DNA from: a virus
DNA length: 20,342 nucleotides
Direction: 5' to 3' (one strand)
IMG/VR virus record: IMGVR_UViG_3300031578_000435
Location: 1-20,342 of that record
In this document: in pieces, positions 1,992 through 4,408 of the stretch
Position numbering within the stretch: the first letter of the stretch is position 1
Layout: each line of letters starts with the position of its first letter
The notes under the pieces: generated by a model
Database searches by the model: none
What the model saw: only the letters and a program-made list of their open reading frames with translations
Told to the model about the DNA's origin: nothing
Program-made: the position numbers and the translations under genes

Positions 1992-2801
1992 ATCGAAGTC
2001 ATCGAGAAAATAATTCCCATTAACCGGAAGAGCCAAATTACAATCTATCCCATCGGAGACATTCACTGCGGTTCTATCCATTGTGCAGAGAATGAAATCC
2101 GAAAACAGGTGGATATTATCAAGAATGAATCTGATGCTCTCTGGGTGGGGATGGGCGATTATGCCGACTGTATCTTAAAGAATGACCCCAGGTTTGATAT
2201 TGGGGGATTGGCTCCCTGGGTCAAGCCTGACAACATAGTAGAGTCTCAAAGAAAGTGGGTTAAAGAGTTATTGGCGCCCATATCCTCAAAGTGTTTAGGG
2301 CTCCTTACAGGCAATCACGAAGAGACGATACACCTGCGTTATGAGAACGATATAACCCGCAACTTATGTGATGACTTGAAGGTTCCCTATGCTGGGTATG
2401 CCTGCTATATTGCACTATCTTTCAAACGAGCAGAAACGGCTTGCCATCGTTCCTTAATTCATGCCTGGCACGGTGCCGGTGCCGCGCAAACCGAAGGTGC
2501 CAGGTTGATGCGGTTGATGAGGCTGGTTAATGAGATTCAAGCCGATATTTATTTAATGGGACACCTCCACGCTATGACGCAGCATACCCCGGACCGGCTT
2601 TTATATTCGAACGGTAGGATTAAAAGTAGTAAATTGGTGGCTACTATCACTGGCTCCTGGCTTCGAGCATATACACAGCCGAGGAAGGGACAACAGCTCA
2701 ACGCTTCTTATGCCGAGATAAAAGGCTACAAACCTTCCAGGATAGGATGCCCCAAAGTGATAATCAAACCAGATAAAGGCGAATTTTCAATAGAATCATG
2801 A
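1992..2801 (+). CDS. Calcineurin-like metallophosphoesterase
   Basis: The protein shows the full motif series of two-metal phosphoesterases: GDIHCG (residues 22-27 counting from ATC 1992), GDYAD (55-59), GNHE (107-110), His157/His160 in HAWHGAG and GHLH (190-193). Such enzymes hydrolyse phosphodiesters or phosphomonoesters in nucleic acids or small molecules; the substrate is unknown here. GTG 2109 is the first conventional start in the frame but would delete the GDIHCG motif, so initiation must be upstream. The frame opens after TGA 1986-1988; AAGGGG (1980-1985) is spaced six bases from ATC 1992, with ATT 1989 as an alternative, giving 269 residues. It lies downstream of a promoter with two attenuator-like hairpins and overlaps the DUF4406 gene by four bases. 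Confidence 0.85.
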   Translation: MEVIEKIIPINRKSQITIYPIGDIHCGSIHCAENEIRKQVDIIKNESDALWVGMGDYADCILKNDPRFDIGGLAPWVKPDNIVESQRKWVKELLAPISSKCLGLLTGNHEETIHLRYENDITRNLCDDLKVPYAGYACYIALSFKRAETACHRSLIHAWHGAGAAQTEGARLMRLMRLVNEIQADIYLMGHLHAMTQHTPDRLLYSNGRIKSSKLVATITGSWLRAYTQPRKGQQLNASYAEIKGYKPSRIGCPKVIIKPDKGEFSIES

Positions 2802-3154
2802 GGATTTACACAGCTCACAATTACGGGCGTAGAAGAGGAGCAAGTGTAGAAACGTTACAGAGGAATGTTGATAGCTCTATCAGGTTAGGTCTTCAGCTCA
2901 TTAAGAAAGGACACAATCCCTTTATCCCGAACCTATTCCATTATGTTCACCTGATGGCTAACGGGTCTATCTCGGAAGATACATTCTTTCAACTCGTATC
3001 AGAGTGGGTGGGATTCTGTGATGCCTTATTAGTAGGAACTCCACCCGATGGACCTGTATGTGGTGTAAGGGATGAGATAAACATAGCCCAAAGTAAAGGG
3101 CTGATTATATATTATTCTATTGATGATGTTCCTGATATAAGTGGAGAAAGTTAA
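2798..3154 (+). CDS. DUF4406 protein (nucleoside 2-deoxyribosyltransferase-like)
   Basis: A 118-residue protein starts at ATG 2798, overlapping the stop of the phosphoesterase (ATGAGG). The order of features matches the DUF4406 family: N-terminal RIYTAHNYG, a helix with N-V-D-S-S-I-R-L-G, the K-K-G-H-N-P-F-I-P segment, a W-V-G-F-C-D-A-L-L-V strand, and G-V-R-D-E-I-N-I-A near the end. These proteins share the fold of nucleoside 2-deoxyribosyltransferases and are common in phages, where a role in nucleotide salvage is assumed. Whether the catalytic residues are all present cannot be judged. The overlap with the preceding gene suggests joint translation. Confidence 0.75.
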   Translation: MRIYTAHNYGRRRGASVETLQRNVDSSIRLGLQLIKKGHNPFIPNLFHYVHLMANGSISEDTFFQLVSEWVGFCDALLVGTPPDGPVCGVRDEINIAQSKGLIIYYSIDDVPDISGES

Positions 3155-3157
3155 TAA

Positions 3158-3298
3158 AGAGCCGAGGCTTGAAGCGAGTTGGTGAAATCGCACCAATAAC
3201 AGAGAGGTTAAGGGCGAACGCCGAAAGGCTAGTAGTATGAGGTGGCTACAATAGTAGAGGGTGGCGTAACTCTATTGCGTGTTGTAGGAGTAGGCTCT
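3158..3298 (+). ncRNA. Structured element closed by AGAGCC/GGCTCT
   Basis: AGAGCC (3158-3163) pairs with GGCTCT (3293-3298), enclosing several local stems: TTGGTG with CACCAA across AAATCG (near 3179-3196), GCC-GAAA-GGC with a GNRA loop (near 3220-3229), and CTACAA with TTGTAG (near 3246-3287) containing an inner TAGAG/CTCTA stem. No convincing ORF fills the stretch. The multi-branched shape suggests a phage non-coding RNA or structured leader. It does not match any RNA family that I recognise. Confidence 0.4.
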
Positions 3299-3304
3299 AA
3301 TTAA

Positions 3305-3481
3305 GCTATGGTGGCGGAATAGGTAGACGCTATCAGAGAGACTGAGACTGGTAACCTGGCAAGAGAACTGTCCGATAAGAGCTATAGCGCCCCTTTAACG
3401 GATGGGCACCGTGGGGATATTGAAGATTGCTATAGGTCGGTAAATCTCGGTTATCTAGGGTGCAAATCCCTAGCCATAGCA
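3305..3481 (+). ncRNA. tRNA-Leu-like element with very large variable region
   Basis: The 5' end is tRNA-Leu-like: acceptor GCTATGG (3305-3311), T and G at positions 8-9, D-arm GCG/CGC (3314-3316 with 3328-3330) with GG in the loop, then TATCA/TGAGA (3331-3335 with 3343-3347) around a seven-base loop GAGAGAC that would place GAG, a leucine anticodon, at 34-36. The 3' end has a T-arm-like CTAGGG/CCCTAG stem (3455-3460 with 3468-3473), loop TGCAAAT, and CCATAGC (3474-3480) closing the acceptor. About 107 bases separate the anticodon arm from the T-arm, where tRNA-Leu has about 15; they include a stem near 3390-3416. Oddities: no U at position 33, an A-G mismatch in the anticodon stem, one pair too many in the T-arm/acceptor stack, no encoded CCA. 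It is probably a tRNA-derived or decayed element and not a decoding tRNA. Confidence 0.5.
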
Positions 3482-3493
3482 AACGGTAGAAGA

Positions 3494-3673
3494 ATGTCAA
3501 AGATGAGAATCACAATAATACCGGCATACATGATAGAAACCACTGAAGGCAGGCAGTTATATCCGGCGTGGGTTATTGAGCGCAGTGTTTTTTATTTATA
3601 TGGAATAGATTGGGAATATTTGCGGTATCCGGATGAAATCTGGTGGAGACACCTTTGGTTGAACAGGAATTAA
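3494..3673 (+). CDS. Small hypothetical protein
   Basis: A 59-residue frame runs from ATG 3494 to TAA 3671-3673, and the next gene's ATG follows immediately at 3674. The sequence is rich in aromatic residues (FYLYGIDWEYL, IWWRHLWLN), reads like a real compact protein, and starts MSKMRITIIPAYMI. The ribosome binding site is weak; ATG 3503 is an alternative start. No family is recognised. Its position directly before the terminase small-subunit candidate suggests it is part of the late operon. Confidence 0.5.
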   Translation: MSKMRITIIPAYMIETTEGRQLYPAWVIERSVFYLYGIDWEYLRYPDEIWWRHLWLNRN

Positions 3674-4021
3674 ATGAGTACAAAGATAACAGAAGCACAA
3701 AAGAATAAAGCAATAAAGACATATGCAACATTCGGCACTATGACCAAAGCAGCAGAAGCCTGTGGCTCTAGTCGTCAAACACTATACGAAGAGGAGAAGC
3801 GGGACAAGTCATTCAAGAAGGCCATGGTCAATGCCAAACAGGAATATATAGAGGGGCTTGAGGCTGTCTTAGACCACAGAATTAAGGACGATCACGATAA
3901 AGCCTCGGCTATTCTATTGATGTTTAAGTTGAAGAAAGAGAACCCGGAGTATCGCGATAAGTTTGAGCATAAGGTAGACGCTGAGATTAAGATTATAAGC
4001 GGGGTTCCTAGACCACAGTAA
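3674..4021 (+). CDS. Terminase small subunit candidate (helix-turn-helix)
   Basis: A 115-residue protein begins at ATG 3674, adjacent to the upstream stop. Residues ~10-45 form a helix-turn-helix of the kind found in phBC6A51-type terminase small subunits and related phage DNA-binding proteins: K-A-I-K-T-Y-A-T-F-G, then T-K-A-A-E-A-C-G-S-S-R-Q-T-L-Y. A helical oligomerisation region with K-A-M-V-N-A-K-Q-E-Y follows, and the end is a charged tail. The small subunit recognises viral DNA and hands it to the large subunit, which lies about 850 bases downstream. The order small subunit, several tiny genes, large subunit supports the call, but a general phage regulator cannot be excluded. Confidence 0.65.
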   Translation: MSTKITEAQKNKAIKTYATFGTMTKAAEACGSSRQTLYEEEKRDKSFKKAMVNAKQEYIEGLEAVLDHRIKDDHDKASAILLMFKLKKENPEYRDKFEHKVDAEIKIISGVPRPQ

Positions 4022-4022
4022 T

Positions 4023-4209
4023 ATGGTGGAGGAATAGGTATGAGCGAGAAACCGTGGAAAGACTCACTATGGATGGACTGTCTTTTTGAACTCTATGATA
4101 AGGCAAGGAAAGAGGGCAAGGAGACAGTGGAGTTTGTTGATGTAGATAAACTCGTCATAGAGAAATCTAGGGAAATATCAGAATATAAGATAGGTGTAAA
4201 TCCCTAGCC
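4023..4209 (+). repeat. Diverged second copy of the tRNA-like element ends
   Basis: ATGGTGGAGGAATAGGTA (4023-4040) matches 3308-3325 at 17 of 18 positions, and GTGTAAATCCCTAGCC (4194-4209) matches 3460-3475 at 15 of 16. The two blocks occur in the same order and are about 187 bases apart here against 168 in the first copy, while the sequences between are unrelated. The acceptor pairing is largely lost (GCTATGG has become AATATGG). Confidence 0.5.
4040..4207 (+). CDS. Small hypothetical protein inside a tRNA-like frame
   Basis: A 55-residue frame begins at ATG 4040 after GGAGG (4028-4032, seven bases upstream) and ends at TAG 4205-4207. The protein starts MSEKPWKDSLWMDC and is charged, with a helical E-L-Y-D-K-A-R-K-E-G-K segment and an acidic-basic C-terminus. 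No family is recognised. Its ribosome binding site coincides with sequence matching the 5' half of the tRNA-Leu-like element, and its stop codon lies in the part matching the T-arm, so its borders seem built from a copy of that element. Confidence 0.5.
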   Translation: MSEKPWKDSLWMDCLFELYDKARKEGKETVEFVDVDKLVIEKSREISEYKIGVNP

Positions 4210-4408
4210 GTAGCTCCTCGCCTCACACTGACGCTAACAAAAAAGGCCCCTAGCTGTCAGCACATTTTGTAGCTAAATCCTATCTACAGGTCTACATAAC
4301 CTATGTAGTGCGTTGTTCAAATAGGGTAGGGGTCAATATTTTAGAAAAGATGGGAAGAGGGGCCAGTATAAGGTGCCTCTAATACCAAACAAAACAAAAG
4401 GGGGATGA
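4208..4408 (+). other. Gene-free structured leader before the 4409 gene
   Basis: This 200-base stretch has no convincing ORF but several stems: CTGACGCTA (4228-4236) with TAGC-T-GTCAG (4251-4260, one bulge), a perfect 7-bp hairpin CTACATA/TATGTAG (4292-4298 with 4302-4308), and AGAGG/CCTCT (4356-4360 with 4376-4380). GGCCCCT in the first loop (4245-4251) can pair with AGGGGCC (4358-4364), giving a possible long-range contact. No promoter or tRNA was convincing. Confidence 0.4.

Follow-up and report, generated by a model that had tools for sequence, protein, structure and literature searches.

The RNA encoded at positions 3305-3481 of the window (the whole stretch of viral DNA analysed; its 20,342 bases make up a complete IMG/VR record that includes head and packaging genes) is neither a tRNA nor the relic of one, and it belongs to a widespread and so far unannotated RNA family, here called the tRNA-shell family. 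The family, found chiefly in phages of Bacillota, is well supported: viral contigs and phage records as well as bacterial genomes (mostly of Bacillota) together hold at least 284 distinct copies. Their common shell combines an acceptor stem of 7 bp and U8 with a D-arm (GGCGGAAUAGGUAGACGC) and with a T-arm that has a 6-bp stem and the loop UGCAAAU. The constancy of the D-loop and T-loop is in part a product of the exact-pattern searches, although variant arms do occur among the BLAST and model matches. Comparison of the copies demonstrates, at the level of sequence, that this shell is kept by selection for structure and that it encloses an exchangeable, sequence-constrained insert. The reading considered best, with a probability of roughly 0.55, is that of a stable, trans-acting non-coding RNA of phages in which a mimic of the outer half of tRNA-Leu provides the scaffold for an exchangeable RNA cargo.

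In the window, the RNA lies inside a 339-base non-coding stretch flanked by the ORFs at 2798-3154 and 3494-3673, and the terminase small subunit gene begins 192 bases downstream (Table 1). A covariance model (R1) built from 26 other family members, with the window left out, returned a match with boundaries at exactly 3305-3481, an agreement far beyond chance. The sequence-only reading had described a tRNA-Leu-like RNA here and had made its case dependent on recognition by a tRNA model; ARAGORN found no tRNA at these positions and Rfam, including its tRNA model, gave no match to them at gathering or permissive thresholds (E up to 10), while the model of the new family does recognise the element. 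The proposed acceptor stem stands, all seven pairs forming with a probability of about 0.99 when the window RNA is folded. The D-arm also holds, with its tRNA-Leu D-loop and with U8 at 3312, and the T-arm is present but has a stem of 6 bp rather than 5 and a loop reading UGCAAAU rather than UUCRANU. The D- and T-stem pairs sampled reach folding probabilities of only 0.12-0.42 by themselves, so the support for both arms comes from comparison and not from energy. The anticodon arm with GAG is not in the window; the sequence after the D-arm forms a local hairpin with 4 bp and a 5-nt loop (UCAG-AGAGA-CUGA) or with 5 bp and an 11-nt loop. A large excess of sequence between the D-arm and T-arm had been correctly noticed, although what was taken for a variable region of ~107 bases behind an anticodon arm is a single 124-nt insert with no such arm. 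A search for relatives of this insert, suggested by the same reading, came back empty: exact 17- and 22-mer scans found neither the insert nor the stretch upstream of the RNA (3160-3303) in other viral contigs, and local blastn gave no significant match. The upstream stretch is itself non-coding and structured-looking (folding z-score -2.15; outer pairing AGAGCC/GGCUCU plus several hairpins), has no Rfam match and no relatives found, and is possibly a second phage RNA.

Table 1. Features of the tRNA-shell RNA, its surroundings in the window, and tRNA genes nested in related copies.
Feature	Position	Strand	Support
Entire tRNA-shell RNA, from base 1 to base 73, in its predicted mature form	3305-3481	+	cmsearch, model R1, 65.6 bits, E 1.3e-15
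Acceptor stem, 5' strand GCUAUGG	3305-3311	+	7/7 pairs with 3474-3480; family-wide covariation at all 7 pairs
U8 G9	3312-3313	+	U8 in 221/221 family members
D-arm: stem GCG/CGC, loop GAAUAGGUAGA, as in bacterial tRNA-Leu	3314-3330	+	D-stem compensatory changes in relatives
124-nt insert ("cargo") replacing anticodon arm and variable arm	3331-3454	+	Family comparison
AU dinucleotide separating insert from T-stem	3453-3454	+	Preceding the T-stem in the family: T 279/284, A 252/284
T-arm: 6-bp stem CUAGGG/CCCUAG, loop UGCAAAU (3461-3467)	3455-3473	+	
Acceptor stem, 3' strand CCAUAGC	3474-3480	+	
Discriminator position 73, A; no CCA after it	3481	+	
Terminase small subunit gene, second ORF downstream of the RNA	3674-4021	+	PHROG 4044, E 9.6e-17
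Second, diverged copy of the tRNA-shell RNA, T-stem broken by insertion	4020-4215	+	cmsearch E 0.011
Nested tRNA genes (Lys, Ile, Ile, undetermined) within inserts of relatives	L038 3896-3968, L104 477-547, L110 3021-3091, L122 1753-1825 (oriented loci)		

The wider occurrence of the RNA is apparent from several kinds of search. A sensitive search of phage records located this D-arm in unannotated stretches of phages of Lactobacillus, Leuconostoc, Enterococcus, Weissella, Brochothrix, and Bacillus, and in those examined the T-arm is kept at varying distance and the acceptor sequence differs yet still pairs. Pattern scans of viral contigs yielded 109 and more than 120 stretches, and a scan of bacterial genomes yielded 77, nearly all in Bacillota (Paenibacillus, Listeria, Lactobacillaceae, Weissella, Clostridia). 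Carriers include the textbook phage SPP1 along with phi3T, SBSphiJ, and EFDG1. Under a strict filter, surveys around individual carriers were positive in 4 of 299 Bacillota genomes (the survey centre being one of them), in 7 of 200 genomes, counting the centre, from the order to which a Paenibacillus centre belongs, and in 1 of 200 from the phylum of an Alphaproteobacteria bin, namely the centre only; the weak matches (25-40 bits) in the surveyed genomes are as long as an ordinary tRNA-Leu. A description of the family was not found in the open literature searched, though one may exist elsewhere, and the 2018 SPP1 re-annotation mentions no tRNA and leaves this RNA undescribed where it deals with non-coding and intergenic sequence. 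Tools that search for tRNAs probably miss the family because it has no anticodon arm.

Pairing is maintained across the family while the sequence of the stems varies. The acceptor stem is fully paired in 228 of the 284 copies and has at least 6 of 7 pairs in 266, the T-stem has all six pairs in 266, and these counts, which are unselected for pairing, cover 206 distinct acceptor stems and 70 distinct T-stems. Within the alignment of 26 members, most of which were selected for full pairing, two-sided changes are seen at 12 of the 16 pairs (101 cells versus 24 in shuffles), and slid controls are about 40% paired versus 100%. Compensatory changes extend to the D-stem of relatives (GACGG...CGU, GUCGG...CGA, GUGG...CAC). 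A minority form, exemplified by the thermophilic phage D6E, has a UUCRANU loop yet keeps the 6-bp T-stem.

Several features distinguish the RNA from one that decodes. The window RNA has the 7-bp acceptor stem, U8, and D-arm of a tRNA-Leu and an A at position 73, but neither the 5-bp T-stem and UUCRANN loop of tRNA-Leu, in place of which it has 6 bp and UGCAAAU, nor an encoded CCA. Across the family, a normal anticodon arm (5-bp stem, 7-nt loop, U33) following the D-stem occurs in 1 of 284 members versus 1.8 in shuffles. UGCAAAU loops accompany 6-bp T-stems in 226 members and 5-bp T-stems in none, in loci mostly fetched by that motif, and CCA follows only 2 of these 226 members versus 112 of 266 ordinary tRNA-like matches in the same loci. 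Base 73 is A in 143 copies, T in 90, G in 27, and C in 24, and thus A in only half of them. Because the anticodon arm is at chance level, no CCA is encoded, and base 73 varies, it is very unlikely that the RNA decodes in translation, and a role as LeuRS substrate was rejected on the variable base 73. The pseudo-tRNA "tRNAOther" of Bacillus cereus was considered as well and is a different RNA with a Trp anticodon. The GUGC in the T-arm is reminiscent of the staphylococcal tRNA-Gly of wall synthesis, a poor EF-Tu binder, and the 13-bp stack of acceptor and T-stem would resemble that of bacterial tRNA-Sec.

The sequence-only reading also offered two origins from a genuine tRNA-Leu that the family data do not bear out. 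A tRNA-Leu gene split by an intron or insertion, and functional once the insert is removed, would account for the tRNA-Leu D-arm, and other phages do carry genuine tRNA-Leu genes whose anticodon loop holds an insert. Those genuine cases keep the split anticodon stem, the 5-bp T-stem, and the UUC loop, often with CCA, whereas the family has none of these; no anticodon arm is left once the insert is removed, and the group I and group II intron models of Rfam have no match in the window, making an interrupted gene highly improbable. A decayed tRNA-Leu captured by the phage is scarcely credible: the ancestry of the D-arm from tRNA-Leu is clear and a second copy in the window does look decayed, but compensatory changes at 12 of the 16 pairs and hundreds of intact, independent copies in unrelated phages refute decay as the explanation of 3305-3481.

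The interrupted genes in other phages (L349, L363, L407, L418, L460) are of interest in their own right. They are tRNA-Leu genes with anticodon-loop inserts of ~50-70 bases, several of which resemble a small tRNA-like hairpin set ending in ACCA, and excision of such inserts by RNase P and RNase Z, leaving ligatable ends, could constitute a novel tRNA splicing route. A further tRNA-Leu gene, at L192 6153-6441, has a CCA end, a group I intron-like insert of ~200 bases, and the D-arm of the tRNA-shell family.

The second copy in the window (Table 1) aligns to the first with a score of 72.5 (the best of 1917 null windows scoring 46), and its first 20 and last 22 bases are nearly identical to those of the first copy. 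For an ORF at 4040-4207 (55 aa) no relatives were found; its start lies at an RBS-like version of this copy's D-arm and its stop within the T-arm.

The inserts are mostly unique. They range from about 40 to 195 nt, the upper limit reflecting the search, and 166 of the 284 have no relative in the set. The predicted folds of 42% of members, versus 11% of shuffled inserts, include a helix that stops exactly 2 nt short of the T-stem, so the insert often begins like a variable arm that has been enlarged. A canonical tRNA T-arm is present in seven inserts (versus 0.05 expected), and ARAGORN finds a complete tRNA nested in four. No common fold was found among the inserts, so "cargo" may lump several functions.

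The distribution of related inserts indicates exchange between phages. The siphophage SPP1 and the Herelleviridae phage SPG24 have inserts that are identical at 54 of 57 positions and acceptor 5' strands that agree at only 2 of 7, and the SPbeta-like phage phi3T and Goe27 have inserts identical at 74 of 82 positions with 4 of 7 in the acceptor (by the gapped count used, unrelated inserts reach ~72% identity and the signal lies at 90-95%). The phi3T type of insert is common to the Bacillus subtilis phages phi3T, Goe27, and SBSphiJ1. The converse is also observed, as SPG24 and SBSphiJ1 (both Nitunavirus) have nearly identical shells, with the acceptor 5' strand and T-arm unchanged, around inserts of the SPP1 and phi3T types, respectively, and phi3T and BUCT082 have an identical acceptor 5' strand and D-arm and the same adjoining HU-like gene with different inserts. 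Since inserts are kept across unrelated phages and acceptors are not, the insert is constrained in sequence and the acceptor mainly to pair. As judged from these alignments, inserts and acceptor stems have demonstrably been recombined between B. subtilis phages.

The genomic surroundings of the family fall mostly into two settings, the head of the late operon and tRNA islands. Among 237 oriented loci, the commonest neighbors on the upstream side are late transcription activators or sigma factors, those on the downstream side are HNH and terminase small and large subunit genes, and normal tRNA genes lie within 1 kb of a quarter of the copies (56/243). No single flanking gene family common to all members was found. 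An RNA-processing link to the RNA ligase of the window phage, conceivable to the sequence-only reading, is not supported, a relative of this ligase fragment having been found in only 2 of the fetched loci. The same reading had also counted a lack of acceptor pairing in related phages toward its refutation; the closest terminase relatives lack the whole element, and the RNA is therefore accessory and dispensable there, and wherever the element does occur the pairing is kept. Beside the SPP1 copy (L341 2497-2606, about 110 nt) lies, at about L341 2617-2660, a very short tRNA-like element (ACGGAC...UUCAAUUCCCGGAGUCCGU) with an acceptor stem and T-arm only, which is conserved in phage 279BB001 (L481), a phage without the tRNA-shell RNA. 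A different non-coding element (GGGUAGUUGC...GGAACGUUUC...CUUAAA...) with no Rfam match is common to L475 (about 2770-2880), L476 (about 1925-2030), and L481, and thus to Bacillus Herelleviridae and an SPP1-like phage.

In the scaffold model, the RNA would be transcribed along with the late operon or the tRNA clusters, and host RNase P and RNase Z would cut its 5' and 3' ends as in a CCA-less tRNA precursor (in tRNA maturation, 5' cleavage is by RNase P and 3' cleavage by RNase Z if CCA is absent). Maturation would leave a stable RNA, 177 bases long in the window phage, to which the tRNA elbow may lend stability and recognition by tRNA-binding proteins, and which would be neither charged nor used in translation. 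The insert may be the working part, and the sharing of inserts by unrelated phages of one host suggests, less firmly, that it acts in trans on a host function through protein binding, as a decoy, or by RNA pairing. A broader form of the model, in which a constant scaffold in the shape of a tRNA would let phages of Bacillota mature and protect swappable RNA effectors and exchange them, like anti-defence genes, among unrelated phages of the same host, is advanced tentatively, as possible rather than probable.

The position in the late operon also allows a cis role, in which the shell would be tRNA punctuation, an RNase P and RNase Z cut site in polycistronic phage mRNA, and the insert would matter little. 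Most copies are indeed co-directional with their neighbors, often between a late regulator and the HNH or terminase genes, the SPP1 copy lies inside the head operon between genes 9 and 11, and the parts recognised by both nucleases (acceptor-T stack, T-arm, no CCA) are present. Inserts of up to about 195 nt would be superfluous to such a site, though, and the conservation of insert but not acceptor sequence in unrelated phages (54/57, 74/82), together with the occurrence of the RNA in tRNA islands away from late operons, makes punctuation an unlikely explanation. The suggestion of a decoy or tRNA mimic by the sequence-only reading pointed in the right direction, and a specific version, in which the shell soaks up an acceptor-, D-arm-, or T-arm-recognising enzyme of a tRNA-directed host defence or toxin and so protects phage translation, was weighed as well. 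Enzymes that bind the elbow and the acceptor see precisely the part that is conserved, variable inserts shared within a host fit an arms race, and an RNA without an anticodon arm offers anticodon nucleases no loop to cut. This decoy is a special case of the tRNA-mimic scaffold from which the data do not separate it, and taken by itself it is rated as rather improbable.

The findings concern a large RNA family that has gone unnoticed in phages with decades of sequencing and study behind them, and they make tRNA mimicry outside translation directly testable in genetically tractable laboratory phages. Should the inserts be effectors, the family would be a modular RNA counterpart to the anti-defence islands that encode proteins and a naturally occurring equivalent of the tRNA scaffold of biotechnology.

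Compared with known RNAs, the family shares with type II tRNA-Leu (RF00005 class) the outer half of the cloverleaf, namely the 7-bp acceptor stem, U8, the 3-bp D-stem, and the D-loop GGAAUAGGUAGAC, and differs in having no anticodon arm, a 6-bp T-stem (hence the 13-bp acceptor-T stack), a UGCAAAU loop, a variable base 73, no CCA, and an insert of 40-195 nt. The nearest Rfam family is the skipping-rope RNA (RF02924), which is found beside tRNAs in Bacillus Herelleviridae phages. It has an outer stem of 8 bp, and its first arm, containing GGAAUAGGUAGC, closely resembles the tRNA-shell D-arm. Model R1 matches it weakly (E 0.025), but it is short, lacks the UGCAAAU T-arm, and has a conserved 3' arm of its own, and the RF02924 model has no match in the window even at E 10. 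The bacterial Y RNA YrlA (RF02553) is likewise a non-coding RNA that mimics tRNA by a D-arm and T-arm, but its parts follow one another in circularly permuted order (T-arm, acceptor hairpin, D-arm) and its ends lie in a stem apart from these; identity with Y RNA was rejected on this topology, the order here being acceptor, D-arm, insert, T-arm, acceptor. No Ro60/TROVE protein was recognised among the window proteins scanned. DUF2828 proteins, which we take to be TROVE/Ro60-like, occur near five relatives in tRNA-rich phages (L205, L055, L154, L250, L140), and one of these loci has a sub-threshold YrlA match (L055 6676-6767).

Like the tRNA-shell RNA, tmRNA (RF00023) has a tRNA-like domain of acceptor stem and T-arm in which a large insert substitutes for the anticodon arm, but in the family base 73 is variable, CCA is absent, the acceptor sequence is free, and the inserts are mostly unrelated to each other; the tmRNA model has no match in the window at E up to 10. 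GOLLD and ROOL are likewise non-coding RNAs that phages and prophages carry near tRNA islands, and their function is unknown (PMC12286853). They are far larger than the tRNA-shell RNA and have ornate folds of their own, and their Rfam models have no match in the window. The family is placed, as a new form, among the tRNA-mimic RNAs, and to our knowledge a constant natural tRNA scaffold with exchangeable inserts has no parallel. There is an analogy with the laboratory "tRNA scaffold", with which recombinant RNA is expressed inside a stable tRNA shell by placing an arbitrary RNA at the anticodon position; that scaffold is man-made, whereas the tRNA-shell family is natural and would work alike.
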